Source of the DNA: Rhipicephalus microplus
Taxonomy: Eukaryota > Arthropoda > Arachnida > Ixodida > Ixodidae
Direction: 5' to 3'
DNA: 64,000 nucleotides
Assembly (NCBI RefSeq): GCF_043290135.1
Contig: NC_134710.1
Span: forward strand, 456,940,376 to 457,004,375
In this document: positions 1 to 46,437 of the stretch, in pieces
How positions within the stretch are numbered: the first letter of the stretch is position 1
Layout: each line of letters begins with the position of its first letter
Made by a program: the position numbers and the translations under genes
The notes under the pieces: generated by a model
Told to the model about the DNA's origin: nothing
Seen by the model: only the letters and a program-made list of their open reading frames with translations
Database searches by the model: none

Positions 1-272
1 TACACTTTCCTTATCCTTCCATATCCTCCATAATGAACTCTCCGTATGCTCCATAAGTTTCCTTATCTTTCCGTATACTCCATAAAAAGCGTTCCGTATA
101 CGCCATACAATTCCCTTATCCTTCCGTATACTCCATACGAAGCGTTCCGTAAATGCCATACAACTTCCGTATATTTCCATAAAACTCCTTATGTTTTCCG
201 TATGTAGCATAAGGAAATGTTACGGAGTCCATATATTTTCCGTAAGATTTCATACGGAACGTTTCAGTAGGG
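1..272 (-). mobile_element. Left end of a second copy of the TA-inserting TIR element, running off the window
   Basis: Read on the minus strand, this block starts with CCCTACTGAAACGTT (272 down to 258) and continues into the same roughly 53-bp repeats (cores GGATAAGGAAA and TATGGAGTATA) seen at 5616-6035. The two blocks match closely over at least 250 bases. The terminus is followed outward by TA (273-274), as expected for a TA target duplication. Only the left end is visible; the rest lies beyond base 1. Orientation is opposite to the copy at 5616-20403, so the two left ends face each other across 5.3 kb. Confidence 0.75.
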
Positions 273-504: not shown

Positions 505-949
505 CTCTTACTATTACTGATCGAGGGTTAAGAAGGCGTGGAGCCGAGCGCTAAAACGCACATCAATCACTTCTCGAGCTTAGCCTGATTTAAAATTCAC
601 AAAATGGGGATTACGAAAAGACATATAGACAAAAGAAAACCTTTTTACAGTAGTATTGACTGTTTTTTTATTTGTAAAAACTTCTGAAAGCCACAAAAAA
701 TGTGAACATTCACATCATGCCCGTTTCGTTCAACCGGATTTTAGGATGCCCGGCAACTGGTATGGGCGCGCATCTTTTTGAATCCGAAACTAGCGCTGAG
801 TTTGCGGGGCCTGTGTGTACTCTCTCTCTGTCTGTTGTCGTCGTCACACCTTACACATTAAATATGTTGAGTGTTGTGCTATGTCGCATGCTGAGCGAGC
901 GCAGAGCGAGCCGCAAGTTTAATCACTCTTGCAGTGGCCTGCCCGAGCC
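505..949 (+). promoter_or_regulatory. Presumed promoter and 5' UTR region of the SLC5 gene
   Basis: This is the stretch directly upstream of the symporter start codon. It has a T-rich part (640-680) and then mixed sequence with CpG-containing motifs (760-930). No TATA box at a convincing distance or other core element can be singled out. The assignment rests only on position before the ATG at 950. Confidence 0.3.
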
Positions 950-1282
950 ATGGCCCAGCTTCTAGACTACGTCACTTTCTTGGTGCTGACTGGAACCGGC
1001 CTCGCAGTGGGGGCCTACTTTTCCATTCACGCGAATGGACAAGCTCCGAGAAGTACGCATGAGGTCTTTCTAGGCAGCAAGTCACTGCGGATGCTCCCCT
1101 TGGCGATGTCCGTGCTGGCTACCGTCGGTTCAGCGACAGGCATTATTGGTCTCCCGGCGCATATGTACGCGTACGGTTGGCACATTGGTTGGCTTTCCGT
1201 CTCAAACATCATCTTAATTCCTCTTGGTGCCAGCGTCGTCATGCCGGTTTTGTACAAGCTCAACATCACTTCCGTCTTTCAG
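950..1282 (+). CDS. Sodium/solute symporter (SLC5 family), first coding exon
   Basis: This exon encodes the first 111 residues of a sodium-coupled solute symporter, a multi-pass plasma-membrane transporter. The order fits the SLC5 N-terminus: TM1 at residues ~6-26 (DYVTFLVLTGTG), then the family pattern of a Gly-x-x-Ser segment, Leu-Pro, a small-residue-rich TM2 and a Pro-x-x-x-Tyr (GSKSLRMLPLAMS, then IGLPAHMYAYGW, residues ~48-83), and TM3 at ~84-107. The ATG has a good context (GAGCCATGG). The exon ends in ..TTTCAG with donor GTGAGT (1283-1288), phase 0. An upstream in-frame ATG at 929 would add seven residues; I prefer 950 for its context and the usual short N-terminus. Substrate cannot be told; monocarboxylate or vitamin carriers of the SLC5A8/A6 type are closest by eye. 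Confidence 0.85.
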
Positions 1283-3147: not shown

Positions 3148-3400
3148 TGCCACGTTGGTCTAATGACTAAGATACTCGGCTGCTCACACGCAGACAGCGG
3201 AATCGAATCCCGGCTGTGGAGGCTGCATTTCCGATGGAGACTGAAACGCTGTAGGCCAGTGAGCTTAGCTTTGCGTGCGTGGTAATGAACCCCAGGTGGT
3301 CAAAATTTCCGGAGCCCTCCGCTATACGGCGTCTCTAATAATCATTAGGTGGTTTGGGACGTTAAACCTCACATATCAATCAATCAATCAATCAATTAGG
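3148..3400 (+). repeat. Ruka-like tRNA-derived SINE
   Basis: A tRNA-like head (GTTGGTCTAATGACTAAG as A box, GGAATCGAATCCCGGC as B box) is followed by a body with CCCCAGGTGGTC and GGAGCCCTCCGC. The tail is GGGACGTTAAAC..CACATATCAATCAATC. This is the organisation of the tick Ruka SINE. The copy is essentially full length, transcribed to the right. Confidence 0.8.
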
Positions 3401-3739
3401 TCTAACATGGCCAAACCCGACAAAGGCAAGCTGAGCTGAGAAAACCTAAATTTGTGTGCTCGGCTTCATTCGTTTTTCAAGGCTGGCTACTTTTAGTTGC
3501 GCTAATAAACTGGTATAAATACTGACTCCATTCCTGCACTGAAACCAGCGCCGTCGCAACCACTACGTGAAAAAAAGAAAAAAATTTGCAGATCTCCCCA
3601 GAAGGAATCGATAATATGCGAAGCTCGAAAAATGACGGTCGTTATGTCACTTTAAAGTCAGTACAATGTCACAAGGTGGACGTAAATTATACCGTAATTG
3701 ACTTCCACATCCTGATTATTATGATATAACTTCTCATTT

Positions 3740-4650
3740 ACCTTTGTCGTCTGTTCACGTCTCGTGATACAAAGTTTGGTATATTTGGAGCTAGTGGAAT
3801 GGCCGCGAGCAGGCTATGAGGGTAGCACATAGTCATGTTTTACATGAGACGCATGTCATGATTATCATGTTTGGACACATCATTTCCTTTTGGTGTGCAT
3901 TCGTGTACCATGATACCAAATTTGGTATATGTGGAGCTTGTAAGATGGCCGCGAGCGTGCTATTAGCTTAGCAAGCAGTCATGTTGTTCATGACACACTT
4001 GTCATGATTGTCACGTTTGCACGTGTCATTTACCTTTATCGTCCATACACGTCACGTAAAACCAAGTTTTGTGTATGCGGAGCTAGCAAACCGGTCACCA
4101 GCCCTCTATGTGCGTAGCATGTGGTCATGTTTCACATGACACGCATATCATAATTATATTGTTTGGACATGTAATTTATCTTCGTCGTCCATAGCCATCA
4201 TGTAACACGAAATTTGATATATGTGAAGCTAGCAAAACAGCTAAGAGTGCATCATGAGCGCGGTATGTAGTCACGATCTTTGATTACACCCATATCATGA
4301 TTGTAGTATTTGCACCAGTCATATACCTTTCTGGTCAATTCACGTCACGTAACACCAAATTTGGTATTTCTGACCCTAGCTACACGGCCGTAAGCGCGCT
4401 ATGAGCGTAGCATGTAATCATGTTCAAAAGGCATGCATATCATGATTTCCATATTAGTGCCTTTCACATGTGTTCACCATGCATTCATGTCATACCGTAG
4501 AAGTTTCGCAATATGTTATGTCAATGAAAATACCGTAAGAGCAGCAAGACCATGAAATGTAAATCATGACCTTTATTACATACAGATAATTATTTTCATG
4601 TTATAACAAGTCACCTATGCTCGTCAAACAGTCATATTATGCCATGCAAA
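3740..4650. repeat. Satellite-like tandem array, period about 146 bp, six monomers
   Basis: The motif around CCAAATTTGGTATATGTGG recurs at about 3775, 3921, 4067, 4213 and 4360, with spacings of 146, 146, 146 and 147 bases. A diverged sixth unit lies near 4504. Each unit also carries a TCATGTTT..CATGACACGCATATCATGATT block and a CACGTCACGTAACAC block. Units have diverged by substitutions and small indels. The array lies directly upstream of the Gypsy-1 remnant. Confidence 0.8.
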
Positions 4651-4823: not shown

Positions 4824-4892
4824 AAGTCATGGAGAGTGCTGCGTTCCCTTTCGATGCCCTTGAAGCTTTGATCACGTACCCTGCATTCTACC

Positions 4893-5613
4893 ATGCCCCA
4901 CGACTCCTCTCAGCAAACGCCCCCTCCCGTGCCGCCCCCTTGTCCCGGTGTCCCCAGGATCCGCGATCCACCCGTCTTCACTGGCACCGATGGCACTGAC
5001 GTGGAGGACTGGCTTGCCATTTACGAGCGCGTGAACGTCCCTCGAAAATGGGATGAGGACGGCAAGTTGACAAACTCGGTGTTCTACCTTGCGGGCATAG
5101 CCATTTTGTGGTACAAAAACCACGCGTCTGGCTTTGGAACATGGTCCAATTTCAAGACCACTGTAATCAACCTTCTGGGCCGCCATGCCATTCGTAAGCT
5201 CCAAGCCGAGCAGCGCTTACGTTAACGTGCTCATCAGGCTGCTGAGTCATTCACCAGCTATAGTGAAGATGTCCTGGACTTGCACAACAAATCCAACTAC
5301 AGCATGTGTGAGTTTTACAAGATCCGAAACGTCATGAAAGACATTGGCGATGATGCCTTCACGACGCTGCTCGCTAAAAACCCTGGCACAGTGACTGAGG
5401 TCATTACACTGTGCCAGAGCTGCGAGGCGCTCCGCCGGCAGCGTTAGATGACCATTCGCTCCCCACCCAAGCTGCAACGCTTGCTGGCTTCAAGGCTAGC
5501 TGTGACCAAGTGGTGTTGCTGGCAGACCTCAAGTACTTCATACGCGAGGAAATTGCAGGCCAGTTCTTTCTCCTGCCATTTGCCAACCCACCGGCTCTTC
5601 AAAAATCGGCCAC
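4893..5613 (+). pseudogene. gag: Gypsy-1 gag, 5' part (split by the TIR element)
   Basis: Gag of a Ty3/Gypsy LTR retrotransposon, the structural protein of its virus-like particle. From the ATG at 4893 there is a proline-rich start (residues ~9-19), then the gag core with DVEDWLAIYERV and FYLAGIAILWYKNH, and after a premature TAA (5223-5225) the continuing frame with DVLDLHNKSN and TEVITLCQSCEALRRQ. A frame shift follows near 5440. The frame reaches FIREEIAGQF and is then cut at 5614 by the 14.8-kb element. Reading continues in frame at 20406. Gypsy-3 carries a related gag at 46588. Confidence 0.75.
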
Positions 5614-5615
5614 TA

Positions 5616-6035
5616 CCCTACTGAAACGTTCCGTATTAAATCTTACGGAAAATATATGGACTCCGTAACATTTCCTTATGCTACATACGGAAAAAATATG
5701 GAGTTTTATGGAATATAACAGAAGTTGTATGGCATTTACGGAACGCTTCTTATGGAGTATATGGAAGGATAAGGAAATTGTATGGCGTTTACGGAAGGCT
5801 TTTTATGGAGTATACAGAAAGATAAGGAAAATGTATGCCATATATGGAACGCTTTTTATGGAGTATATGGAAGGATAAGGAAGTTTTATGGCGTGGATGG
5901 AGTGAGTTTTATGGAAAATATAAAAAGATAAGGAAACTTATGGAGCATACGGAGAGCTCATTATGGAAGATATGCAAGGATAAGGAAAGTGTATGGAGTG
6001 TACAGAAGCTTTTATAAGGAAATTGCAGAATGTAG
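5616..6035 (+). repeat. Left subterminal array, 53-bp period
   Basis: After the TIR and about 110 bases of unique sequence, units starting GTATGGCNTTTACGGAACG and ending GGAAGGATAAGGAAATT begin at 5727, 5780, 5833 and 5886 (53 apart), with more diverged units to about 6035. The motif TACGGAA recurs in the TIR-proximal part. The array is shared with the second copy at 1-272. Confidence 0.8.
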
Positions 6036-8100
6036 GGTCTTACGAAAATATACAGATTTTGTAAAGTTCTTACGAAAATGTGCAATAGTGTATGCAAGGC
6101 ATGTGGATTGTTGCAAAACTGTGGAAAATCTACAGTTGTTGTCACATTTTCAGCAGGAAATCTGAGCTCTATAATGTTATAAATGAATGCACAGTGACAT
6201 ATATAGTACAAAAGAATAATGCAGGTTAGTGTGTGTTGTCAGTCACCACTGTTCGCCCTTTTCCAGAATGAATACAACTTTGGCAGATGACCAGGTGCTA
6301 AAGTCTGTCTCACGGAAAACGTGTCATTCACAAGGAATGACAATAACTGTCATTTTACTTGCATGCTGTCACACGAAAACAAATCAAGCAAGAAAAGCAT
6401 AACTTCAAGGGCTCGTTTTTTGGTAGAAACAATAATAATGAGAACTAAAATCAATGTGAATGAACTTGTCAATATCATGAAACTGTTCTCATAACATTGG
6501 CACAGAGAAATGTCATTTTAAAATATCGACCATGAGCTTAGCTCTCCTGAGCACCGACAAAAAAATAAAAATCTATGAAAAATAATTGCATGTAGCCTAA
6601 AAATAATTTTTTGTTGATAGTAAGTGCTCCTACAATATAAATACAGCTATAGACAACTTGCCATAGCTTCACGACAGAAACGAGGTAGGGGCAGAGGGAG
6701 TAGTCAGAAAAATAATTAAGTATGAGAGCACAACTGATATGTACGGACACATATTGCTGCTTATCATTGATGCACGGATGGTCGTGTATAGAGCTGGGTC
6801 ATTTTGAGATTTTCAAAAGCATTGTTTCAGACCACCATGCAGATTACGCTTCAATTGTAGTGCTACATAAGACACAACTTATGGGCCAGCTTTCATGAAT
6901 AAGAAGATTATAGGTTAAACAAATGCTTTAAAATATATCATATCATGGCTGCATGGACGCATGTAAAGCGCAATAAAGTGAGGACGCATGAGCTTTTCTT
7001 GATGCTTCAGTTCTACATAGATGCTTCAACTGTGCTGCAAAGAAATTTAACCAATGTCTGTGTGTGCAACATTGTCCATTTTAAACTATCTATATGTATA
7101 TATAAAATTCCTACTGCGAGTTAAGCTACGTAGCACTCCATAAATCTTCCTTTTATTGAGGGCCATTTTTCAAACAATCAATATTATTCATTTTCTGTCT
7201 CATGACTTCGTGCCCGCAATTCTTGGTTTGGCTCAATCACAATTGTGCAGCCGTTATTTTGGAGGAATCAAAAAACATCAACCAAAATATATTTTGGAAC
7301 TGCTTCTCGGTGATATTGCCTTCCCTCAACTGCCACAGCTTGAGATGAGTCATATAGCAAGTCTCGCGCATACCTAGGGCCTATCCTTGAAGAAACTGGT
7401 CCGGCTGTGAAATGGTTAGTTTTTTCTCAAATAAATTTTTTGGTTTGAGTATTCTCAGTTCTCGAGTTCCTCCACAATCAAGCAGACCCAATGTTCCCCT
7501 TAGTCCTTAATTTTTGTTATATTATGAAATAAATAAAAAACTAATAATAAAAACGAAAATACTAATAACTGTTGCGCAAAAAACACAGTCCCACATACGT
7601 ACTTGAACGCAATATTGCTTTTATTTTGTTTTAGAACCTAAGGCATTAGAAAAGATAGCAGTACAATAAAAACGTTGAAAAAACAAAAAAACAAAAGAAG
7701 ATTTAGACTTGGCGGGACTCGAACCTGCGCCACTTAGTTGTGCTCGCGTACGTGAACTGAGTGCGTTAACTTGCCAAGCTATTCGCGCTGAACAGTGCAC
7801 GTGAGTTTAAGTTATGTATATAAATTAGCTTTTTACACGCTATGTGTTGGCATATTTATGTACAATATGCGATCGTATCTATTGTTGTGTGCATATGTTT
7901 TGTGATTGCATATACGTCACATGCTTTTCGCATGTCTTTCAACTATAGATTGCTGCCCTGTCGCGGATGAAAACAAGTATTTTTACACCCACACACAAGC
8001 TTGAGCAGTTGAAGGTTGTTTATTGGGGCTCTCTTGCAATTGAGTCGGCCACCACAGGGAATTAGAGTGATACGTCATTAATCCCTGCATCTAGCTGTAT
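6036..8100. other. Interior of the TIR element, no gene recognised
   Basis: AT-rich sequence with only short ORFs of non-coding character. The longest, at 7156-7377, shows no known domain. A tRNA-like fragment lies at 7704-7790. Confidence 0.35.
7704..7790 (-). repeat. tRNA-like SINE head, reverse orientation
   Basis: The reverse complement contains a B-box-like GGCGCAGGTTCGAGTCCCGCC and an A-box-like TTGGCAAGTTAACGCA at tRNA spacing. The acceptor stem is not completed, so it is read as a SINE or tRNA relic rather than a working gene. Confidence 0.5.
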
Positions 8101-8119
8101 TCCACTTAGTAGCACTATT

Positions 8120-9100
8120 GCTTGATGACAAATCGAGCGCGGGGCGCGACGCTATTGCGCACGACCATGCCTCGCGTAGTGGCGACATCAGCTGAGTGCG
8201 CCAGCCCGCTTGCTTCGATTTGCTTCAGAGCAAAAAAATGTCATACCTTGAAAGATTGCGTACTACACTATGTCAAAATGTTACTGCTTTGTAGCCATCC
8301 TATGATTCATTGAGAAATGATAACTCTGATATCACTACTGTGGAGCTTTGCGTCGGCCACACGCACTGAACATGAAACCGCACTACGTCTGTCGTAGAAG
8401 CAGTAGTAGGTTGTCGTCTGCTAGAACAAAAACAAAACAAAGACCTGCGAAAATATTCATAAGTTGTAACTGCTTTTTTGAATAACCGTTTATCACTTTT
8501 AAAGTTATTTTGCCAGATAACATACATTTTTTTCAGTTTATAGCAGCGACAGTAGTTTTTTTTTATTTTTCTCACACTGATATCCAAGCCAAATCAATTT
8601 ACAGCTAAAGCCACATGTTGTTTGTCTTTGTTTCCGTGGGCATGCCGTTTCGGTGCGTCTCTCATGTGTTCGCGCTGCTACACACGAGAGCACGAAATGT
8701 TAAATTTACGCAAGGAAGCGCCGTTCCTCGTTCGTGTGATGTGCTAAGATTGCGCCCTATTCCCGTGGTTGTACGAGTGCGGATCAAGTGCGAGTCGTCC
8801 AAGGAATCGGCGGGTTGGGCGGGCGCTCGAAAGACTCATAGGTGACGGCTGACGCCTGTGGTTGCTTCCCTCAGGACAGTTTGAAAGAAACTAAAGGTAA
8901 GGGGGACACTTTTTTATGTAGACCAAGTATGCCACTCAGTGCAAGTGTGTGTTGCTGCACTCGAACGAGGCGTCGTGAAACGGCAACCTTACGCGCCTTT
9001 GCGAGTGCGGTTGCCGATTCGCTTTGACAACGCTAACGCCAGCAGAGCCATGGCTCATCGGCGCGTTCTTACTGGAGCTAATTTGAGACAACTGCGGTAA
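8120..9100 (+). promoter_or_regulatory. CpG-rich stretch with splice donors inside the TIR element
   Basis: CpG-dense sequence (8130-8215, 8640-8850 and 8960-9070) stands out from the AT-rich interior. A strong donor follows at 8897 (CTAAAG|GTAAGG). A second candidate first exon at 9050-9096 begins GCCATGG and ends CTGCG|GTAACA after 47 coding bases. This would fit a promoter with alternative first exons, for a cargo gene or a split transposase. No downstream coding exon can be joined with confidence. Confidence 0.3.
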
Positions 9101-12100
9101 CATGCGTGTGTATGGTGATCGATTTTTTCATATGTGCAATGTAGTGAGGAAGACGCACACGGCGCTTCATACGTTGTTGATTAAACGAAGCCTGCAGTGC
9201 CATTTCATGCAAAGCAGCATTTTGTTTACGTTCACGGGAGATACAAATTGTAACTTGGTTCAATTCACCTAGCCAACCGCCTAAGTGGGTTGATTAGCAT
9301 ACGTTCACGGCAGAGCGTTATTATGCCCCCAAAGAGTGGCGTGTGCTTGTTAAAAGATATAATGTGTGTGTCTGGTGTAGAGAGAGACAGGTGTTCGTGC
9401 AATCTGCATATGTACCTGCAAGACGCTTTTGCTTGTAACTAATAATGTACTGGCCAGCACCTACATTGTACGCCTGAATTTGAAGAAAACTTGCATGCAC
9501 AATGTGACATTTTGTAATCTGCCAAAGTTGCTTTTTATAAAATAGTACACTGCCAGCATGTTCAAAATATGTTTCGCTTCTGTGTGGCAGGGGTGCGGTT
9601 ATCACGCTGTTGTGTAGTTGCTGAGGCAAGCACTTATAGTTTGGATGCGTTAATATTTCTCATCTAACTCATCAGGTGTTCGGCTGTTTCAGCACAAACA
9701 TGGCAAAGAGAGAAGGAAGATGGGTAATGACAGGACCAGTGCCGGCTTTTGTTTGCAGGAGAATACCCATGTTGGTGTATTTTTTGTGACAGCCTTTCTG
9801 TGTTGCTTTTTTGCCCAATATATGCAACAACACAGTTGTCAGCAATATGAGAGAGAACACTGAAATTAGCTTTTAAAGATCATGGTGACTAAATGCCTAG
9901 TAATTCACAGCACAAAGTAACAACAAAAGACATCAGTATGATCAATGTGGACGAGTACATTCTTGCATTTAAAAAATACATTGTGCAAATTGTTGCCTAA
10001 GTAAGAAACCTCTCTATGTTTGCAAATAGTGTGACGTCACTTCGAGCACCGTGCCAGCCATTCGCTCCCTCTGTGCAATGGCTGGTTGGCAAGGAAGTTG
10101 TTTGTGATGTTCCTGATAGACCACTTAGATGTATGCGATTCTAAACCTGTAGCCTAATATATACGTAATCTTTCGCGCAGTTACATCGCTGCAACTGACA
10201 CCTACAACTTATTTGCATATTTACATTGCTCCCTTAGGACCTAACACACAAACTTGTTGTTTGCATTGTCACTTCGTGAATATCGAGCGGTAAAGGTACT
10301 GAGTATATGTGAAAAAATAATCTCTGCTTATTACATGAAGACATAAGAGGCCTTCGATAAAACGAGTTATACCTTTATTGGGCCTGCGTTCTCGTCGGGG
10401 CGATTCATACATGCAGCTTCAGCAAATGGTATCTTCCAGCCCGGTGACCATGCAATTTTTTTCTGCACACAGCGCAAACACCGAGATGTACCCACTCGCA
10501 GATGGTCGCGTCAAGTGCATATTTACCTTGACTAAAATGTCGAATCAAGTTTTTTCATCGACCGGTCCCTGCCATAAGTGCTAACGTCTTCGCAAACAAG
10601 ACACATTGTTATTGACACTGTACACACCACACACAATATTCTCATTTGAACCAATTTTCTCAATACCTTTCAATGCACACTACATGCCGCAATCAACAGT
10701 GCACATTTTTGAAGACTATGCCGCTGTTCTTTGCACAGGCCACCACGTATGTTCACTTCTTCAAGATAAACAGACAGCGTGGCAAATATTTTACCACACA
10801 GTTTACCACACAGCTAGATATTTGCTGACACATACTACAGCTAATGACGACATTGTAACGTGAAGGGTAAGCTTTGAAAAATTAAAACTTGCCCCAAACA
10901 CCGCACGACTGTACCGGGCTGAGCCACCAGCCGGAGTGTTTTTCCAGCCACACCTTTTACATGTGCCAGTGACATCATGCTGTGACGTACCTCGGTAGGG
11001 GACCATCGCCGCATACTTCATGTGAATGAGGGTCCTGTTAGTGAAAGCAGGCATTGTTGATTTCGTAACTTGTTCATTCCCAACTGGACCTTCATTTGCA
11101 CGATTTGTCTGACTGATATTCAGGCGAACCTTTGTGCAATAAAGTATACAGTTGGCAGTCTGTGCTTGCTCCATACTGTTGTTACTGGTGTTTCATGTTG
11201 TTACTTTGCACTGCTCATTACTGCTCACCTACAGAAACTAGCCTATCTTGCTGCTGTTTTGCACAAGATGCAGCTGGCAACTGCGATAGTGTTCATAACT
11301 CTAAATTCTCACGGAAAAATTATCGTTTCATATTCATTTAGTTGCATTCATATCAGTACATTATAAGAAATCATTGAATAAACATTTATCCATGTTTCTT
11401 CACATAATGCTCACAACTTTTATGTCAAATTGAATGGTGTTTATAAAAAACATGGGTTTTAGCTAAACTTCATGCTCTTTTCTCGAACAGCTGACAAAAC
11501 GCTATTGCATGCTTACGTGCCATGAATTGGACTGTGTATGAAATATATTGCAATTCTTCACCGGACTGCCAGTACACTTCACATTGGCGGAACAGTAAAT
11601 CAACTATAGATTGAATAATTAGGAACGAAAACAAAGAAGCGGCAGGCCGGGATACTTGATATTGGCATCCGTTTTGCTACCCAGCGCATTATCATGCAAA
11701 CTTTCTATAGAGTGGTTATGCGTCTTGCATGTGTGTCTGTAAACCAAGAGCTTTGGTTAGAACTATATTTATTTTACATATGGTTGCAGGACTGTGGAGG
11801 CTGTAGGACTGCTTAGGAATGGTGGAATCCCTTGACATGTGTTCAACCTTGCTGCATCAGCTCCTTGGTGTTTTCATGGCATCTTTACAGATGTGTTGGG
11901 TGAGTAAAGCAAGCAGGTTTCAACACAAGGAAAAGTAAAATATGGCAGCACCTCTTTTGCGTGCCTTACATCCCAAGTATATGAAATATTTATCTTGCAC
12001 CTTGTGGCCGGTAATTTTTAAAGAGACACTTCTTTTTGCTTTATATTTGAGTCTTGATGCTTCGACAGCAATGTATTTGTGTTTGACAGCAAGTGTTTTT

Positions 12101-14090
12101 GAACAAATAACTGATCTCAATAATGACAAAACACCCTTCATACTTAGTCCTTAGCATAAGCTAGCACATATCTGTAGCAGATTCAATTATTCATTTTTTG
12201 CTGGGATGATAATGGGCAAGTAGCAAAGGCAAGTTCACATTGGAGTGGTCGGTGACGTCTGTTTAGGCTCTGCCATATTGCTTTGCAACCAGAGTCACTT
12301 GTGGCCACATATACAAGGAAGCCACATGAGGTACATTCTAAATGAGATTACCATATCACATTTCGCTGCATCTCAATGTGTGCCAAACAAATGCAGATAT
12401 CATTAGCTTGCCACTATAAGGGGATCCTAAACCAACGCAAAATTGAAATTTAGTCGTGGTGTTGCAGCTGTGTAAAAATCTACAATGGATGCATAGCCGT
12501 GATAATTTGTCTATATGTTGTCGCAATAGTAATGTTACACACATTGTATGATACAAAAGAGGTCCTCGCTTATTTCGCGTTTTTTCGGTATGCTTCTTTC
12601 TTGTCTCTTCTTGCCATGTGCTCCTCCTCACTGTACAAGGAGCAAGAGTAGTGGGCACACAAACACGTATTTAAAAAAAATGTTGTAAGGTGAGCACTGA
12701 GAAGCTGAACACTTCCAAAAAGCTCAAAGAGGTAAAGGTATTGTTTCTAGCTACTTTTTGGGCACCCATAGGTAGTTGTGCTGCTGTAGTTAAAATATAA
12801 GTTAAATGTTTAAAATTAATTGGAGATGGTTTGGCACCCATAATTGCAGTTACATACAAAACTAGGTTTCAATGCGTAAGCAAAATCTGTTTACTCTAAA
12901 TCAATCCTAATGATATTTGAAATTCAGGAAATATTCACAGAAAAGCTCAGGAAAAGGCTAAGTGGTTGCCCCTTGAATGTGAAGGAGATACCCTTCTTCT
13001 AAAAGGTCAATAGACTGTCCAGTAGTCTCGATATTACATGCACTATAAAATATTCTGGTGTGGTGCTTTTCATGCATGTTATAATGAGAGGGGTTTTTAA
13101 TAGATTTGTTGTCACTTTGCCCTGCATTGCTGAAATTGTTCACATAGTTATAATACATGAATCACTTTATGCCTTTTATTTTTATGCAAATGGTTTGCTT
13201 ACCCAGTCGGTTTAGCTTGATTTGGATGAAATCATAAATGATCTAAATTTTTTTTTACTATACAGCAGGTTTATTTTTAAAATACGCGACCATTGATGTG
13301 AACGCAGTTGGTGGCGTGCTTGATTATTCCTTCACTATCACCACTCTAACTACACCTGCTACAGTGCATAGTGTGACAAAAGTAATGGTACTTAACATTA
13401 CACTTTTATGTCTCAAAATACAACATACACTTTTATGTAACAGCATACACTTTTATGCCTTAAAATGTGTTAAAAAGCCTGGTAAAAATGTGTGTATGCT
13501 TTTTTTTCGCTCCAAGTAAATATTCTGGTCTACTTAAAGTAGCTTCCGCTCTTTTAAAGTCCTCAAACTATTAGGTGTTCAAAAGAAGTATCAATGCCAT
13601 ATGCTTTCTTTGTCAGCCTACTCACCACTCTAATAATGAGAATTACCCCACAACATTACCCAGTGAAATATAGGGATGTTATAAAACGTTTGTCAATTCA
13701 ACTGTCAAAAAACGTTGCCAAGTTACGTTTTTGTTCACTTTTCTTTTCACAATTTTGTTAAAGTTACTTTTGATAACATCCCTTATAGTTTGTTTGGCAT
13801 CGTTTTCTGCTAGTTCTCATTATATTTTGTTCAACAAAGACAACAAACCCTTAAATTTATAGTTCTTTCCGTTACTCATGAATCTGAAACAGTGAATCTC
13901 AGTAATCTTAGCGGTGTGTGACTTGTTTTTTTTATCAGTTCTGCATGTGTTCAAGTACATGCATTTTGGTGGGAGGGCGAACTATTGCCATCTCGTGTGA
14001 CTAGCAGAATTTCTGAGAACTGACAGATGCATAATGCTGCCAAAGAAGTATAGGGATATTGGATGTAATCGTAACGTAATTGCAATCGTA
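9100..14090. other. Interior of the TIR element, no gene recognised
   Basis: AT-rich, with scattered ORFs under 125 codons on both strands and none with a recognisable motif. Isolated acceptor-like sites (for example ACTCATCAG ending at 9675 and CACCTACAG ending at 11234) are not followed by convincing coding sequence. Confidence 0.35.
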
Positions 14091-14300
14091 ATGTAATTGC
14101 CAGTAGGCAAAAAAAGGTGTCCCACACTCGCCATAATGGTAACAGGCAGCGCTGACGGACTCTTCCATATATAAATGCACATATATACCGTACAAAATGG
14201 AAGAGGGATAGCCGCCATGGTAGCTCAGTTGGTAACACATCAGGCATGTTATTCGAAGTTCGCAGGCTCGGTCCCTGTACAGGGCAGGTTATCTTTTTTT
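14090..14300 (+). repeat. tRNA-derived SINE, second family, copy 1
   Basis: A leader with CCCACACTCGCCATAATGG and CACATATATACCGTA precedes GCCGCCATGGTAGCTCAGTT (A box), a B-box-like GAAGTTCGCAGGCTCGGTCC, and a T-rich tail (14292-14300). The same order of blocks occurs at 46160-46350, showing a repeated family distinct from Ruka. The insertion lies inside the TIR element, so it came later. Confidence 0.65.
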
Positions 14301-15208
14301 CCTTCTACTTTTCTTTCTTCACAATTACAACACTTCTATTCTTCTTGAAGACTTTCTGATGTAAAAAAGGTACCTTATAATCTGAAGAGGCAAACAGAAT
14401 GTGCCAGCGTACGAGTTAGCTCTTGTTGTGTTTTCAAGTAAGATATGTTTTGAAGAATAAATCATTCTGCCACTTGCCTAAAGAATGGCTACAGGACGTG
14501 GTACTGGATGCACTTTGTTATTTTTGAATCAAGCTATCTTGTATTCTATTTTAATAAATTACATGGCATACACATGACGGTATCACACACTTTAATGCCA
14601 CAAAGATTATGCAGCGAACAATGTTATAAATGCGAAATTGCATAAGAATAAGGTGAAAACGGCACCCTCAACGAGATTGTACAAGGAGCACTGGGTGCAG
14701 GCGTCATTCCTTCCGCCCGTGCTTTTCAAGTGCGAGCTGTTTTCACCTCGTTCTGACCAACTAACTAAATTGAGATATGTTGTTATAGTGCAAGAGGATG
14801 CTCCACGGGAACCTAGGTTTGTCTCAAACTCTGTGTGTGTCTTTCAATCTATATGGTGCCCGCTTCAAGAGTTCATGCAGACCAGACCGTGTAAAACAGG
14901 ACCGTGTAAAATGGACCGTGTAAATAAAATAAAATGGACCATTTAAACAAACAGGATCGTGTAAAATGTCGTTTTCGTGTGCAACTGTAGTTGTGTTTGT
15001 GCTGAATGACCTTTCTTTATATACACTACATAACAAACTTGCTCCTTTAGAGTCTAGTGCATCTTCGGATCGATTGTAAATGTTTGCATATGCGAGGCCT
15101 TAAGTTTTATTAGAAATTCCTCAGTGTGCCACGAGGAAATGTGTGTTCAGCAAAAATTTGCATATCATTATATACAAATCCTTATGCCTCGTCTATAACT
15201 TTCTGCAG
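14300..15208. other. Interior of the TIR element upstream of the candidate exon
   Basis: One ORF at 14638-14946 (102 codons) includes a degenerate GACCGTGTAAAA repeat at 14886-14965. Its function is not recognised and it may be non-coding. Confidence 0.3.
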
Positions 15209-15435
15209 GTTGACCTTGAGCAGAAAAAGAGGAGCGGCAGCAGCCCCCAGAAAAGAGCAAGCACCCTCCAAGCTCCCGAAGCTCTCTTCGACAGGAACAT
15301 AAGGTCACTGTGTGGCATAAGGTCACTGTGTGGCATGGAAAACCATTGCAAGGAGTACCTTATCGGTACATTGTGCTGCTCTTTCATCGAAAACGACGAA
15401 GTTGACCACCCCAAAGGAACTTCACCCTGTGTATT
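15209..15435 (+). CDS. Candidate internal coding exon inside the TIR element, unknown protein
   Basis: A pyrimidine-rich acceptor CTTTCTGCAG ends at 15208, and a consensus donor GTGAGT starts at 15436. The 227-base exon is open in the phase that starts at 15209 and ends in phase 2, giving about 75 residues. They begin with a basic Ser-rich stretch (KKRSGSSPQKRAS) and continue with several Cys and acidic residues (GTLCCSFIENDEVD). An 18-base direct duplication (AAGGTCACTGTGTGGCAT) sits at 15301-15336 and adds six residues in frame. No domain is recognised. It could belong to a captured host gene, a split transposase, or be a chance open exon. No partner exons were joined. Confidence 0.35.
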
Positions 15436-18400
15436 GTGAGTGCTTCAGTGGTTTTGTTTTTGTCCAGCCAGCAGTTGAGAAATCATGTGTCAGATTCAGC
15501 CGGGATGGCTAGAGGGAGTCGGGCAGGCATGTTTGGACATTTGTCTAGCCAAGTAGTGCCGATTTTCGCACTGGTCCTGTTGGAGTTACTGCCACAACCA
15601 CAGAAGCTACGTCACCTCTCTAAGTGTACAGATGTGTCGGGGAAGATTAGCTGCATTAGGTTTTTCTGTAACTGATAGCTGCCAACATTCTTCATTATAC
15701 AGGAGTTTTGTTCCTCACTCATGGGTGTAAAGCCCTCCACAGAAAAAATGCAACACTTCTACTTCCAGAAAGCTCCAAGGCCCTACTTGTAGGTTTTTTC
15801 GGCTTGTATCATAAGCACCTCGTTTGGGTGTACATGAACATTTTATAAACATGTACAGCGATAAATTTGGGTGGCCGGTCGTTTTGCGCTTATCATGTTC
15901 CTCGCAGTATTTTTAAGCATGTTGTGCATTACGTTGTCAATCTGGTTCATGTGCATAGAAGACATTACGAAGTTTCAGGCTACAGTATAAAAAGCCTGGA
16001 AGCAAGCTATCAATAATTTTTTAACAGAGTTGCTTAATTTGATACATGATACATCACTAAACTTTCGTGTGTATTCATGCTCGTCTTAGTGTTATCCAAA
16101 ATGAAGATGTGAGTCGACAGATGGAAACATCTAGTGGGGTAATCAGGGTGAACAGTGGAAGTGCCTCAGACAGGCTGGCCGATGTTGCGATAGGAGGACC
16201 TATTTTTTAGGAGTCACCTTGTCATCCTTGGCGTGTTAGTTTAAATGGGCTCAGTAATGACATCATCTTTTGGTGTAGGCGTGTGTGCCTGTTGGAAATG
16301 TTTGTCTCAAAAAAAACCTATAGCGCAGAACAGTGCAGCCCTTGCTTCTTTTCAAGTTAGGTTGCGCTGATACAAAGTGTTCTCCTGTCGGAAGTTGGGG
16401 GTAAGGGAAGCAAAAAAAGATAAATGATAGAAAAAAAGAAAGAAGAAGAAAGAAAAGGGGGACGCAAAGTAAAAGTAGTGCTACATGGCTCCTACTTTTC
16501 ATTCGCCCTTTTCTTCTTTTTTTCCCTTGTTTTCTTTTTTCACCTTTTTTTGTTACATTTGCATTGTCCCATCTAGTATGACATATGGCTTTGCTATAGC
16601 AAAGATGCCTATGTGGTGTTGGAGTGAACAGTGCATTGTACTTCATTCAGTTAATTACAGACTGATCAGTCTTGCAATAAGTGCTTCCTGTCTATCACCA
16701 CACATGTTCAAATGAAAAGTTGGTGCTTGGCTCTTAGTATGCTGGTATATAGCTTGTGTCTTGGACTACTCAAAATGAATGTTATTTTGCTGCTGTTTAT
16801 CGTAATGAATTTATTCAACATGAAAATATCTTGCCTTGCGAACTTTGTCGGACCTGCCTTTGTTTTTCTTTCTAAGCAGGCATTGTATTTGAGGGAGGCA
16901 GTAACAGAGAGGTGATAGCTTGAGCTTCGGAAGAATAAATGCTGGCAGTGAGGCAATTACACATCAAACATCCCTGCCATTTTGCCAACCGTCCTAAGTG
17001 TGTTTTAAAAACAATATTGTGCTCGTTTACTGTATCGAAAACAGCAAAATGCTAAAATATATCGCAGAGAACAAAATATTAGGCCACGTTGGTGCCTTCT
17101 CGACTTTCCAGGATGTCGTCTGGGTGTTGTTTGTAAAAAGTAAAAAGTGTTTCAAAAATACTGCCTCTTCTACACCAAATTCCGTCCAGGTATTAAGTAA
17201 AGGTAATTGTGTGTAGTGCATGAAGCTCAGGAATATTAGTGCAATTTTTTGCCACATCAAAAGCAAGGAAGCAGTTCTCTTTATATGGCAAGATATATGA
17301 TTACACTTTGTCTTAGAGTAGAAATGAATTTTTGAAGTTTTCTTATGATGACTGTTTTTTGCATTTGATATACGACAGCTTCCGTTCCGAAGTTCCCCAT
17401 GGCCTTCAATAGGAGACTTCAAAAATAATTTTCCTCATTTAAACCAAAATTGTAATGATAATACTTGCCAGATAACAAGAACTGTTCAATTGCTTTCAAC
17501 TTACACATAAAAGTAATTATCAATTAGAAAAACGCACAGCTCAAGTTGCATCTCAATGTGGACAAAAACGATTATATAGTGATATTTGTAATCTGGACCT
17601 AACATTATTTTTTTTCGTGAAATATAACTTCTGTGCAGTGAGTATTTGTGGCTCAAATATTCATACAAATTGCAGTATTGCCATACAATAAATGCAAACG
17701 ATGAAGGTACCCACGTGACCACAACATTTTTCTCTTCAAAACATATCTGCAAATAACTATTTTCAGAAGAGTAAATTACCATAATTTTTTTAAACTATAC
17801 ATCTGTGATGATCGCCAGGCAGTATGGTTTGTATGTTTGGTGTAGAATAGCCCAGTGCGAAAAACAACAAATGTCTGAGCATCCTTTGACGCTCGGGCAA
17901 TTTCGAAAGCACTTGTTTGTTAGCAGCAATTCAGTTAAGCCCTTGTCTTAATGCTTAGGCCCAGAAACGAAACACAAGTAACCAAAGTAGTCCTAAGAAT
18001 CATGCAGTCTCGCTGTTCCAAGGCTTGTGGAGCCTAATTTAGTGCAAGCTTCACCATTTTTGAAAAATTCAGATTCAACCAACAGGGTTTGGAGGCGCAG
18101 TGCATTTTCAGCTAACTTGTTTCACACCAGTTACTTAGATAAAAAGCGGAATGTAGAGGTAAAAATACCATTTTAAAGGCATTGTAGGTAATAACAAAAA
18201 GGACTGCTTTCTTTTTTTGTGTAGTGCTTTGCCTGAACGCTGTGCTTTTTGTGGTATAGTTCATTCTCTAGTGAACATAGGCCTTAAAAACTAACATTAG
18301 CCATGTTGAGGTCGATTTTTTGGTTATAGTCATAGTAGCCATATTAAAAATGTATGACTTCAAACTTGATTGTTCTTTTGAAGATTTTTTTTTGCATAAT

Positions 18401-18640
18401 GATAGTTCAGAGTCTTAGTCAATTTTGTTATAAGAAAACGTGATGTCATAATAGGGTCACTTTTTGTAGAGTCGTTCAGTTCTACCTTACCTTCTACATT
18501 CCTAATAGAGCAGTTATTTTCAATATCGGTATTTAAAATAGAATGAGCATGCTGTATGTAATAAGGTGTAAGCACTTACAGATAGCACATGCACCTAACT
18601 TTTTTGTTGGCAGTTTATTTCTGTTATTCTCAATTCAAAA
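15436..18640. other. Interior of the TIR element, no gene recognised
   Basis: Open frames at 15436-15675 and 16094-16210 have protein-like composition but no recognisable domain. A splice from 15435 into the first would require an intron of only about 32 bases. The remainder is AT-rich. Confidence 0.3.
16405..16560. repeat. Polypurine tract followed by polypyrimidine tract
   Basis: About 60 bases of nearly pure A/G (16405-16470, with runs such as GAAAGAAGAAGAAAG) are followed within 40 bases by about 60 bases of nearly pure C/T (16496-16555). The two arms could pair as a long imperfect foldback or form triplex DNA. Confidence 0.55.
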
Positions 18641-18835
18641 GTGGGGTTTCACGTCCGAAAACCACGATATGATTATGAGAGACGCCGTAGTGGAGGGCAC
18701 TGGTAACTTCGACCACTTGGGGTTCTTTAACGTACACCCAAATCTCAGCACACGTGCCTACAGCATTTCTGCCTCCATTGGAAATGGAGCCGGGATTTGA
18801 TACCGCGACCTGTGGGTCAGCAGCCGAATTTCTGT
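18641..18835 (-). repeat. Ruka-like SINE, reverse, truncated
   Basis: It contains GTGGGGTTTCACGTCCGAAAACC, TTGGGGTTCTTTAACGTACACCC and GGGATTTGATACCGCGACC, which are the reverse complement of the Ruka tail, body and B box. Only part of the tRNA head remains at the right end. It lies inside the TIR element. Confidence 0.75.
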
Positions 18836-20195
18836 TACTCTTGCTCTCCTATTTCTGTGCAGTTCGGGTTTTGTTGTCTGGCTTGCACAGATTTTTAAAG
18901 GCACCTGCCTGATCCCGATTGCTTTCATGGTGATCTTAACCTTCATAATTTGCATAGGTATACCTCTAAAATTGTTCAAGACGACAATTTCGTTCACAAA
19001 CTGTATAATATAAAGGCAGCAGATGTACATGCACACACTATTAAGTGTACATTGAGAGCTTTCACTGGTAGTTCCTAAAGTTTTACTGTGCAGGAAGCAT
19101 TTAAATCATAATTTCATAAGGACATATTAATCGATTATCTCTACCATTGAAAATCGTGACAACCTAGTTATTTTCACTGTGATAAGCATGCTGTTTTCTT
19201 TGATGTGGCAGAACTAATTTATACACTCATTCCTTCTATTATTCACATATGCATAAAATGAAGGATTGTGTGCCTTACATTTTCAGTTTTATTCTGTGTG
19301 TTATATTTCTTGTGCATGTGAACTAATGTGCTAACATGTGTCTCTGACATTATTTGTGCCAATTATTTTCATTTCCAGGTGCCTATGAAGGACACATAAG
19401 TTCTATGGCAGGGACCTTCCAAATATACAGTGGTGCTGGAGACTCAAGCAGCATTTCGCCGATCTCCACAAGACATTCATGAGACAAACACAGCGCCACA
19501 CTTTCACAGTGCTATGATTATTATTTATGTTTAAACATTTCGTTCTAAAATTTCTGTTACATTGTGTTTTGTGCCACCATCTTGTTCTTAGGTGGACCTC
19601 GTTAAATTACGGTGTAGTCACCTCATTTGTGTACCATCAACACTGCATTGTCACTATTCACAGCTGGAGCATACAGACAAATAAAAAATATATTGATTGT
19701 AGCAGGGCTCGTGTGTATATTAGGGCTTCTCTATTGATATTAATAACTTTATAAGTTCTTTAGGTCTTGCATAGAACACTGCAATAATGTGTTCCAATGT
19801 AACCACCATGTATGATTGCTAGCATGTTAATGTAGTAGTTTTGTAATGTATTTTATTTGAAAGGTAATTTTGCTTCCGCATCACGACAATTAGAAAGATG
19901 CCGATGATTCAATCCCTCATTAAGTAGCTTCTTAACACATTTGTTTCTTTCAAGCCTTTATATACTCATCAAGGCTGTTTCAGATAGCAAACATATTTCA
20001 CCTTCATGCAACATATTAGGAAGGAAATATTCATATATATTTCTACACTGTACTTGCTTTTGCAAACAACGTGAATGGCCAATTGCTTTTACTCGAAATC
20101 TAGGATGTCCATTTGATCTTTGCAAGATGCAGCAGATAGCTGCAAGGTTTCTGCAATATGCTGATTTCCGTTAGCTGCTTATCGGGTAATTTAGC
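18836..20195. other. Interior of the TIR element before the right array
   Basis: AT-rich. An acceptor-like CATTTCCAG ends at 19379 and is followed by a short open stretch with an early stop, which could be the 3' exon of a transcript. No family is recognised. Confidence 0.3.
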
Positions 20196-20350
20196 ACGAT
20201 ATGGCACTTTCCGTAAGCTGCGGATATCCGCATCTCTCCGCACGATATGGCGCTTTCCGTAAGCTGCGGATGTCCGCATCTTTTCGCATGATAAGGCGCT
20301 TTCCGTAAGCGGTGGATGTTCGCATCTTTCCGCATGATGCGGCTTTCCGT
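20196..20350 (+). repeat. Right subterminal array, 46-bp period
   Basis: Units of the form ATGGCGCTTTCCGTAAGC followed by TGCGGATGTCCGCATC start at 20196, 20242, 20288 and 20334 (46 apart), the last one partial. Each contains TTCCGTAAG and a short palindrome (GCGGATGTCCGC). The sequence differs from the 53-bp left array, but the TTCCGTA word is the reverse complement of the TACGGAA word found there. Confidence 0.8.
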
Positions 20351-20405
20351 AGATCAATAATTGCGTATGTACGGATCCGTATATGCGTAACGTTTCAGTA
20401 GGGTA

Positions 20406-21010
20406 GCCTTCTACTTCTCATCCGCCGAGCGATTGAGCAGGAATTAGTGGAGGTCATGACTGCGTATCATGCGCAACAAGCTCCGGCTCTTTGCCCCTAC
20501 GTTACACCCAATCGGTTGCCAGGCAGCCTTAAGTCGTTCCAGCGCCCACGCCTATGACTTACGCCGAAGTTACCGCTCGACCTCCGTCCTTTTCAGCGGG
20601 TATGCCCGCTACGTATGTTGACGCAACACCTCACCCTTATTGAGCCCACCATGCAGCCTTTCCAGCCATCGTTCCCTCCACCGGCTCATGTGACATGGGT
20701 GAGGCCTATCTCGGCGAACCGATGGCGCTCACCCGAACTAGCCCATCTGTTTGCCTGCGGTCGCGCTTGTCATGTAGCACATTACTGCCCTCGCGTACAG
20801 CCAGATCCCATTTCTTCACATGTTGTTGGCCAGCTCAGCCGACCCTATCACGACGAACCACCATCTATGCCACCGTCGTCTCGCCCTGCTTCATCTTTTC
20901 GAAGGTTGCCGTCTTCACGATGTTGTTCGCTGTCCCCCATGCGGCCAAGTGTTTCAGCTCATGAGAGCGGAAAACTAGTCACCGCAGTCCCCCAGGCGAG
21001 GACTGTAACG
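20406..21010 (+). pseudogene. gag: Gypsy-1 gag, 3' part
   Basis: The frame resumes after the TA duplication with RRAIEQELVEVM, then proline-rich sequence. A degraded CCHC zinc knuckle follows near 20740-20790 (ACGRACHVAHYC): the first Cys of the usual C-x2-C-x4-H-x4-C is replaced, so nucleic-acid binding is probably lost. Frame shifts separate the blocks. Confidence 0.65.
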
Positions 21011-23505
21011 CTATCGTAACGTGAAAGCTTTCACAACAGCCCTTCTAAATTCAATGACACGCTCGTGGACGGTGTTCATGCATCGGCTCTTATTGACACT
21101 GCCGTATCAGTTATGGACGAAACACTTTCCTGCTTACTTTGAAAAGTCTTGCCGCCTCTTTTTTGGTTCTCCCCCCGTACCGCTAGTTCGCGTCGTATTG
21201 ATCTTACAGCAGAGTGCACAGCTCGCATTGTCATTCAGGACGTTTTGTATGTCGCCCAGTTCATCATCATTCCTGCTTCCTCTCATGACGTCAGCATGGG
21301 ATAAGATTTTCGCTCCTGCTACGACGCCGTCCTCCATAGTGCCTGCATCAATATTGAACTCTTCTCCTACTTGCATTTGACGCCAGAAAGTCTCTCGACA
21401 ATGAGCAAGATTCTCATGGAAAACGATTTAACAGTGCTTCAAAACTCGACGACGGCTGTGTCGGACTACTGCGCCGATATCTCCGACACAATTGCCCTCG
21501 TTTCGCCATTCGACTGTTTTTGTAGTAGGAAAGGGTTGCTAGTACTTTTCGTGACCATGCGAGTCACCCACGGCAACGTCGCTATTTTTGTAACGAACCC
21601 GTACCCGTACATTGTTACCTTGCTTCGAGGGGAATGTTTCGGTAGAGTGAAACCAGTCGACGAAGCACATGTTCTGGGCGTACCTGATAACTCGCGTTGT
21701 CCCATTTCATGTACCATCAGTGCTAATTTCACTGCTGACCTGTCATCTTCTGATGTATTTGGCCTCTTCATTGCAGACAACCTTACGCATGTTGCAAGAA
21801 CATCCTATGGCTTTCAGTGTCATGCGAAGTTCTCTCAGTCGCACGTTTGCTGCTACGCATCACATCGACACTGGTGCAAATTTATTTTTACGGCAACGTC
21901 CATATCGCGTGTTGCCTGTTCAATGTCGGTTATTTAACGAAGAGGTTGATGATATGTTCTAACGCGACGTTATTCGGCCCTCGGACAGTCCATGGGCGTC
22001 TCCTGTTCTTGTTGGGAAGAAAGACGTTTCTGTGCGGCTTTGTGTGGACTACAGACGGCTCAAGAAGATCACTCGCAAGGATATTTATCCACTGCCAATA
22101 CCTCCCATCTCCAACGTCTGAAAGAAGTTTCCGAACGTGTGAGCAATGGCAGCTTGCAAATAAATCTGAATAGGTTCATTTGCAGCATGGCAACTCACCA
22201 TCCTAGGGTACGTCGTGTCCAAGGACGGCATTCTTCCTGATCTGGCCAAGCTTCGGGCCGTGGGCGAATTCCCAAACCTGCGTCCGTCAGAGAGCTGCGT
22301 TGTTTCGTGGGCCTGTGCTCATATTTTCTACGCTTGATATGAAACTTTGCTACGATAGTATCACCGCTGATGAAGCTCTTTGGAAGTAACAGGCCCCTAA
22401 ATTCGTGGTCATCCGAGTGTGACGACATGTTCGCACATCTCCGCAGTTTGTTGACTTCCCCTCCCATTCTACGCCCCTATGACTCTATGGCCCTGATTGA
22501 GGTGCACACGGACGCCAGTGGCGTAAGCATCCGCGCTGTCCTGGCGCACAGCAAACCCGGATCCTCTGAACATGTCGTGACTTATGCAAGCCGTGCGCTC
22601 AAGAGAGCCAAGACAAACTACACCATCACAAAAAAAGTGCCTGGTTCGTCTGGGCCCTTGCAAAGTTTTGACCTGATGTGTATGTGCGCCCGTTTGATGT
22701 CTTCACCAAGCATCATGCACTATGCTGGCTGTCAGCATTAAAGGATCCCCCAGGCAATGTGACCAGTTGGGCTCTTCGCTTAGTAGACTATGACATCTGC
22801 CTGCAGTACCACATTGACCGCCAGTATGCAGGCGCCGACGCTCTCTCGTGCTCCCCTCTGCATGAAGATGACGTTCCCTGCTTAGTATTCTCAACTGCTC
22901 TTTATCCCATCGATGTTGGCATCCTCGCTATCAAATAGCTAAAGGACGATTGGATCGCACCGCTGATTGTCTTTCCCTCTGATGCGTCCGCAACACCATC
23001 CACGCGTGCCTCTTGTCGTGGAGCTCAGCATTTCGTGATTTGTGATGGCCCCCTACAACGACACAATTACGACGCCAATGGCCGGCAGTGGTTACTCGTG
23101 ATACCCGACAGTCTGCGGTCAGAGGTATGTGAATCTTTCCATTCTGATCCGCAATTAGCGCAATCCGGAGTTTCCAAAGCTTACCACCGCTTTAGATAAC
23201 GCTACTTCTGGTGCGGGATGTACCGCTACGTGCCGCAGTTCGTTCGCTCTTGCCTCGCTTGACAATGTGGCAAACACTCAGCACACATGTCACACGCCGG
23301 TCTGCAACCATTGCTTTGCCCTGACCATCTGTTTGAGCGCGTAGGTATCGATTTATATATATGGACCACTTCTCCTGATGTTGGCTGGTAACCGCTGGGC
23401 TATCGTTGCAGTAGACCATTTAACCCGATACGCTGAAACCGCCACTCTCCCTGCATTTACTGCGCGCGATGCTGCAGCGCAGCTGCAGCGTGCATGTTAT
23501 TGTAG
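21010..23505 (+). pseudogene. pol: Gypsy-1 pol remnant: protease, RT, RNase H, integrase
   Basis: The domain order is Ty3/Gypsy-like: a retropepsin active-site remnant (ALIDT, near 21085), a protease-RT linker (21371-21937), the start of RT (SPWASPVLL and [10 protein letters not shown] around 21990-22060), RNase H (IEVHTDASG near 22495; ASRALKRAKTNY near 22590), an integrase zinc-binding segment (near 23190-23280) and the start of the integrase core (near 23335-23470). Between about 22100 and 22190 the palm of RT, including the YxDD box, is deleted. Multiple shifts and stops make it non-functional. It breaks off near 23505 with no 3' LTR. Confidence 0.75.
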
Positions 23506-46350: not shown

Positions 46351-46437
46351 TTTCAGCCACTTTTATTTCTTCAGCTATACATTACAATTTGGTCTAGTAA
46401 CTTTACTCTACTTTTGTTGCCATTACTCTAAAACACG

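Follow-up and report, generated by a model that had tools for sequence, protein, structure and literature searches.

The tick element reported here, left unassigned to any superfamily, resembles the CMC group of DNA transposons (CACTA/EnSpm, Mirage, Chapaev) in both duplication length and asymmetric arrays. CMC elements make target duplications of 2-4 bp (PMC4482050), while the wider CMCT clade makes duplications of 2-5 bp and has termini of the form CA..TG "in most cases" (PMC12730594). Tgmt*, a 20.5-kb soybean CACTA element, has 13-bp terminal inverted repeats (TIRs) and asymmetric subterminal repeats (PMC2613891). The tick element is similar to CMC members in its short TIRs, large size and asymmetric subterminal repeats, although the last trait is not unique to CMC, and the 2-bp duplications of its family (identical flanks in 19 of 23 end pairs) fall within the CMC range. 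Its termini, however, are CCC..GGG rather than CA..TG. Tgmt* also differs, making a 3-bp duplication and encoding its own enzyme, whereas the tick family makes a 2-bp duplication and no transposase was found in it. CMC transposases are of the DDE type and carry the motifs C(2)C and H(3-4)H, but the tick copies yielded no transposase for comparison.

The window, the whole 64,000-nucleotide stretch analysed, contains one complete copy of the element, the ends of which are exact to the base (Table 1). The preliminary description reported exact 15-bp inverted repeats flanked by TA at both ends, and these are present in the window sequence; the repeats are indeed perfect over 15 bp, but comparison of family ends puts the family tip nearer 20 bp. 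It also described the host reading frame as continuing over the junction when the element is taken out together with one TA, which is borne out over 72 codons on the left and 50 on the right, in a host gene that is broken elsewhere. Stronger support for the boundaries comes from the suggested comparison with empty sites: at two paralogous host-retroelement loci (L099 and L100) the sequence is uninterrupted and has only one TA where the element would sit. Similarity between copies likewise stops at the boundary at 71 distinct ends, all picked by exact 15-mer; the claim of boundaries certain to the base holds. Neither a lack of further copies nor similarity running past the ends, the two outcomes named beforehand as counting against the element, was seen. 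A third tip in the window, at 258-272, belongs to a second family member and ends at the same base with TA outside. The host is a retroelement, with a Pfam match to RT-RNase H at 22343-22738. Its disrupted part, earlier named "gag", gave no Pfam match in the four scanned host pieces nearest the junction, and a protein search using a piece of the host gene returned no match.

Table 1. Positions of the element, its parts and its surroundings in the window.
Feature	Position	Strand	Remarks
Left end of second family member	1..272	-	Truncated by window start; 91% identical to left end of window copy
Host retroelement left of insertion	4872..5615	+	Paralogues without insertion; no Pfam match
2-bp target duplication, left copy, TA	5614..5615		Single TA at 2 paralogous empty sites
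Complete element, window copy	5616..20403	+	14,788 bp; perfect 15-bp TIRs, 10 other full copies, paralogous empty sites
Left TIR	5616..5635	+	Family tip of 20 bp, CCCTACTGAAACGTTCCGTA; perfect match to right end over first 15 bp
Left subterminal array, 53-bp period	5697..6037	+	
tRNA-derived SINE-like stretch in element	14173..14321		Resembles window 46229-46373
Possible exon, tentative	15211..15437	+	Read by eye; open frame preceded by an acceptor-like and followed by a donor-like site
Interspersed repeat in element	18633..18827		Similar stretches at window 3170-3380, 33446-33649, and in the 37.3-kb form
Right-end segment, type R1	19921..20403	-	Similarity to other copies ceases at element position 14305
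Right subterminal array, 46-bp period	20165..20343	-	Inward TTACGGAAA motifs
Right TIR	20384..20403	-	First 15 bp perfect; position 16 departs from family tip
2-bp target duplication, right copy, TA	20404..20405		Single TA at 2 paralogous empty sites
Host retroelement resuming right of insertion	20404..20703	+	Paralogues without insertion; RT-RNase H farther right

The element belongs to a large family of discrete insertions bounded by inverted repeats of about 20 bp. In the source genome (3.26 Gb) the 15-bp tip has 1,523 matches (760 + 763), against 3 (1 + 2) for a reversed control. Among the matches listed (100 of the 1,523), at least 33 inward-facing tip pairs lie within 60 kb, and 20 of these 33 are spaced 14.5-15.6 kb apart, the commonest pair size. 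Extrapolating from these counts, we estimate about 300 full-length copies in the genome, or "a few hundred". Ten other full copies were examined, each of which covers 97% of the window copy and aligns with it end to end over the outer 7 kb on each side. They are independent insertions, mutually 95.6-98.4% identical, and stem from nearly one master sequence, from which they lie about 1-2% distant. Most of the differences among them are private (1,733, versus 228 shared), a star-like pattern as after one recent burst.

The dinucleotide that the family duplicates is free apart from being AT-rich. AT makes up five of the 19 matched duplications and TA only two, the others including CT, CA, AC, TC, TT and AA; the earlier label "TA-inserting" is thus contradicted by 17 of 19. 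At the 71 distinct ends, 14 of the 16 possible dinucleotides occur (AT 22, TA 10), and the preceding base is most frequently C (32 ends), with A at 15. Four of the 23 end pairs have no matching flanks, one of them being two right-type ends and not a single element. No pair is flanked by 4-bp or 6-bp repeats (0/23 for each), which rejects piggyBac, with its TTAA duplication, and Polinton/Maverick, with its 6-bp duplication and virus-type genes, none of the latter having been recognised in the ORFs scanned. Likewise, 3-bp repeats flank 0/23 pairs, while PIF/Harbinger, Pangu and Nuwa make a 3-bp target duplication (PMC4482050); PIF/Harbinger was rejected on this tally. ISL2EU, of the PHIS superfamily, resembles the tick family in its 2-bp duplication and in AT being the commonest dinucleotide, but its target is A|AT|T (PMC4482050), whereas the tick family has many non-AT duplications and is preceded by C more often than by A; it was rejected on these counts, and no ISL2EU-type domain was among the Pfam families listed.

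Pfam searches recognised no transposase in the six frames of the window copy (read with X at stops), none among the 25 families listed, of 37 weakly matching ones, when 150 of the 325 ORFs of at least 30 aa in that copy were scanned, and none in 148 of the 162 ORFs of at least 44 aa in one of the youngest copies (L014/L015); the preliminary description had remarked the same of the window copy. The best L014/L015 match came from two ORFs and was to a membrane-protein family (E 8.6e-4; across 148 scans, chance alone would give about 0.13 such matches). Pfam coverage of animal CMC enzymes may be poor. In eleven copies, the outermost 7 kb at each end contain no ORF longer than 185 aa. Three-base periodicity has little power here, as the whole window lacked a strong peak. 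Two repeats lie in the interior (Table 1). That at 18633 is one we take to be SINE-like; for the other, part of the similar stretch at window 46229-46373 matches an Rfam tRNA, and ARAGORN called no tRNA. If "cargo" means captured genes, nothing seen in the interior points to it.

TIRs, target duplications and dispersed copies, all seen in this family, are traits of a non-autonomous transposon, and the absence of a transposase gene is judged from Pfam and ORF length. We propose, with a probability of about 0.68, that the window element belongs, as one of many copies, to a family of giant non-autonomous DNA transposons. A large non-autonomous element had been among the earlier suggestions and is the best-supported reading, no transposase domain being recognised in the copies examined. 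A DDE-type transposase encoded elsewhere would move the element in trans, binding the tips and both subterminal arrays, of which the left is rich in TACGGA. The enzyme would then pair ends 15 kb apart and excise the element, which would be joined to a 2-bp staggered cut. Copies would be gained when excision gaps are refilled from a sister copy, or through excision during replication. Inward TAYGGA / TACGGAA motifs are abundant in the left 420 bp, and TACGGAA occurs 4 + 4 times in the two ends of the window copy and 0 times across the middle 14.1 kb. The same interior carries two right-end types, R1 in the window copy and R-alt in the ten full copies examined. The sparseness of TACGGA in the R-alt right end (1-2) counts against this reading.

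The genome also contains mini-elements that share these tips and make 2-bp duplications (L034-L036), and those of 153 bp and 378 bp may be mobilised by the enzyme of the 15-kb form or by a sister of it. The 153-bp elements match the 15-kb form in the first 20-22 bp and the 2-bp duplication, but are about a hundredfold shorter and have different subterminal sequence. Among the matches listed for mini-element ends (100), one pair 14 kb apart proved to be two mini-elements in opposite orientation. No transposase-encoding partner with the same tips was found among the matches listed, a point against movement in trans. A 37.3-kb class was rejected as the autonomous parent: in the one pair examined, of three in this class, a different element, bounded by inverted tips of its own and flanked by AT at each end, is nested within and accounts for the additional 22.3 kb. 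A scan of 60 of its 204 ORFs gave a reverse-transcriptase match in one ORF, as well as hits to a Tc5-type DNA-binding domain. One 21-kb form owes its length to a LINE-type retrotransposon nested in the 15-kb element, and in two others the extra DNA lies elsewhere (250-bp samples). An old left-end relative (L050/L097), compared over 9.9 kb, matches only in the first ~350 bp (62%), in interspersed repeats and in one 137-bp stretch (64%). Ends starting CCGTATGK gave 33 matches, all listed, and no new kb-sized pair. Viral contigs gave 0 matches, and genome contigs one bacterial match, about chance expectation. A literature search found no description of the family, and 13 letters of its tip matched no paper; it is not mentioned in the transposon passages of two tick genome papers (PMC10561763, PMC3160391) or in passages of the Repbase paper (PMC4455052).

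It is possible, if doubtful, that the 15 kb instead encode their own transposase, divided among many short exons, as the preliminary description suggested as an alternative, and belonging to a family missed by Pfam. The prevalence of the 15-kb form among the matches listed and the retention of the same interior in 10/10 copies are consistent with this. Families moved in trans usually yield internally deleted forms; here 20 of 33 pairs are full-length, which fits an autonomous element better. Exon-like stretches with donor-like and acceptor-like sites can be read by eye near 8897 and at 15211-15437. ORFs of at least 80 aa number 27 in the window copy, above a first-order Markov model (median 14, 95% 20), though four other window tiles of equal length have 27-55. 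A crude exon-chain score exceeded its null on both strands of L015 and not in L014, a weak signal from a score that missed one of two controls, both in its training set. Against this, copies only about 1-2% from their source should keep any catalytic domain readable, and none was recognised in L014/L015. A protein search with the candidate exon at 15211-15437 gave 0/49 candidates at E <= 1, and a 141-residue ORF, present in at least six of ten copies, matches just one unnamed, domainless predicted protein of 123 residues. The stronger version, in which an autonomous 15-kb element with CCC-tipped ends, 2-bp free-dinucleotide duplications and a transposase of an undescribed family founds a new superfamily, is improbable.

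It is very improbable that two short family elements flank and co-move host DNA, making the interior captured host sequence. The existence of same-tip mini-elements, the sharing of one interior by two right-end types, and an interior with SINE-like repeats and no recognised coding would suit such an arrangement, but the window copy contains no internal tip, even with up to 3 mismatches allowed, and the 15-kb left end matches mini-element ends over only ~22 bp. A TA-specific Tc1/mariner-type element enlarged by insertions, which a short TIR and TA on both sides of the window copy might suggest, is refuted by the duplication tally; the 15-kb size also speaks against it, as does an interior common to 10/10 copies, which does not come from chance insertions in one copy; no DDE/D or HTH domain of this type was among the families listed, though a non-autonomous member would lack them anyway. 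The earlier view of a large DNA transposon other than standard Tc1/mariner accords with this.

High-copy non-autonomous elements are normally a few hundred bases long, unlike the amplified unit of about 15 kb in the giant family proposed here. At the extrapolated copy number, ~300 copies of ~15 kb would add some 4.5 Mb to the genome. A free 2-bp target would be a new integration specificity, and an enzyme encoded within the element, if there is one, would be of an unrecognised kind. The family raises the questions of what enzyme acts on it, how two ends separated by 15 kb are brought together, and why full-length forms spread instead of deleted ones.

The 15-kb element in the window belongs to a family of giant DNA transposons of the cut-and-paste kind, and its insertion can be read from its site. 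As the preliminary description had it, the window copy has exact reverse-complement ends of 15 bp with TA outside both (Table). The host frame is likewise open across the junction once the element and one TA are deleted, with 72 codons to the left and 50 to the right, though this is modest evidence taken alone because the host gene is broken elsewhere. A search of the same genome with the right flank alone returned 40 scored matches from 1,433 candidates. Two loci other than the window's own were fetched (L099 and L100); in both, the left and right flanks adjoin and overlap by exactly two bases, a single TA, which directly demonstrates the insertion together with its 2-bp duplication. A third tip in the window is the left end of another family copy, its region being identical to the main left end at 246 of 271 positions, including the three flanking bases CTA, where the similarity ends. 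The window also contains a tandem array to the left of the host retroelement, and an open frame that probably represents a first exon belonging to a transporter gene of the host.

Table. Coordinates of features in the window and in stretches fetched from the same genome
Feature	Location	Details
Left tip of window copy	window 5616-5630	15 bp; TA outside
Right tip of window copy	window 20389-20403	15 bp; TA outside
Third tip	window 258-272
Open frame	window 923-1447	sodium:solute symporter match (Pfam SSF, E 4.7e-7)
Tandem array	window 3734-4237	146-bp unit, 3.5 copies
Nested 22.3-kb element	L030-L032 (37.3-kb form), element positions about 3709-26041	inverted tips CCCAGRCAGCAC, AT flanks
Older element end	L097 (G000:C1:55780400-55790320)	exact 15-bp tip

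The tip was searched for in 3.26 Gb (1,202 contigs), giving 760 forward and 763 reverse exact matches to the 15-mer, against 1 and 2 for the pattern read backwards. Pairing was based on the first 100 listed matches, which cover contig C1 as far as about 142 Mb; among these, 33 plus-then-minus neighbours lay no more than 60 kb apart, 20 of them spaced 14.5-15.6 kb, versus one minus-then-plus. Extrapolated to all tip matches, this gives a rough figure of ~300 full-length copies. Other full-length copies, which the preliminary description had proposed to collect, do exist: ten of the 20 pairs were fetched, and each, whether in the same or the opposite orientation, matches 97% of the window copy with an identity of 92.7-93.7%. 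What is left uncovered (3%) is the segment at the right end, beginning near window 19921; there the ten copies carry a different sequence (R-alt) from the window copy (R1), and both types are present among other ends.

The label 'TA-inserting' was drawn from one site and does not extend to the family. Flanks of 2 bp are identical in 19 of 23 end pairs, and in none are 3 bp or more identical. On the genome plus strand the duplications are AT (5), CT (3), CA, AC, TC, TT and TA (2 each) and AA (1). The 71 distinct ends, a count that takes in both ends of some copies, include 14 of the 16 dinucleotides (AT 22, TA 10), and the preceding base is C in 32. The four pairs lacking matching flanks are L018/L019, a 16.6-kb pair, the 37.3-kb form and a 26.3-kb pair, the last being two right-type ends joined rather than one element.

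All end types share the tip CCCTACTGAAACGTTCCGTA; the 71 ends were preselected for its first 15 bases, and at positions 16-20 agreement among them is 87-100%. Four inward TACGGAA motifs lie in the left 420 bp of the window copy and four in the right 260 bp, with none on either strand of the 14.1 kb between. The ten other copies carry 5-8 TACGGA and 16-18 TAYGGA in the left 420 bp, but only 1-2 TACGGA in the R-alt right end. These subterminal arrays may be binding sites for the enzyme that moves the element.

Pfam searches of the window copy found nothing better than E 0.28 in six frames with X at stops; the copy has 325 stop-to-stop ORFs of at least 30 aa, and the best E among the longest 150 was 0.0076 (25 of 37 families shown). 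For the fetched copy L014/L015, 148 of 162 ORFs of at least 44 aa were scanned, and the best match was to a membrane-protein family, hit by two ORFs with a best E of 8.6e-4; chance alone would give about 0.13 such matches in 148 scans. Across eleven copies, ORFs in the outer 7 kb on each side are at most 185 aa long. Counting against a non-coding reading, the window copy has 27 ORFs of at least 80 aa versus a Markov median of 14, though four other window tiles have 27-55. An exon-chain score, itself not trustworthy, lies above the null for each strand of L015. A 141-residue ORF is found in at least six copies; it closely matches a single predicted protein of 123 residues (six short public contigs) with no domain or name, which shows only that the element was sequenced elsewhere too.

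Twelve kb-sized pairs among the 33 had their interiors read (ten full, one of 37.3 kb and one of 21.0 kb), and another two, of 21.4 and 21.9 kb, were sampled; three more are mini-elements. Size was the criterion for the remaining 16, with the ends considered as well in five. The 15-kb interior is present in all 14 read or sampled, four of which carry nested insertions. The first is a 22.3-kb element, itself another very large TIR element in this genome, whose ORFs include matches to reverse transcriptase and to a DNA-binding domain of the Tc5 type. The second is a LINE-type element whose 1001-residue ORF matches both reverse transcriptase and endonuclease, and the remaining two are seen as extra DNA in the sampled pairs. 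These 33 pairs, drawn from the first 100 of the 1,523 tips, revealed no coding partner bounded by two exact tips. The mini-elements, two of 153 bp and one of 378 bp, share the family tips and have duplications CT, AT and TT, and the left end of the 153-bp type has 179 + 189 matches at up to three mismatches.

Tip pairs of 37.3, 37.3 and 43 kb begin at G000:C1 95331156, 95463643 and 95596145, and the spacing of about 132.5 kb hints at tandem repetition of a segmental duplication. The older end at L097 is 62% like the 15-kb left end over its first 350 bp or so, the rest of the 9.9 kb fetched being mostly unrelated. At two further loci (L038, L056), family ends in the same orientation stand 0.8 and 1.2 kb apart, suggesting that members inserted beside or into each other.

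The family is probably non-autonomous, and its mover would probably be an enzyme of the DDE type. The preliminary description takes the host for a tick, a view in keeping with the repeats of ticks. CMC elements are closest in architecture: their duplications are reported as 2-4 bp (PMC4482050), a range that includes the 2 bp found here, and large size and asymmetric subterminal repeats are described for a 20.5-kb soybean member (PMC2613891). However, CA..TG tips, described as common in the CMC-containing clade (PMC12730594), are absent from the 15-kb family, which is therefore not filed under CMC.

Age was estimated from an alignment of the outer 7 kb per side of the ten copies (13,636 columns), in which 228 variants occur in at least two copies, against 1,733 private ones, a private change of about 1.3% per copy. 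This pattern points to a burst whose source was nearly a single master sequence. The window copy departs from the majority at 627 of the aligned columns, and looks older or derived from another lineage.
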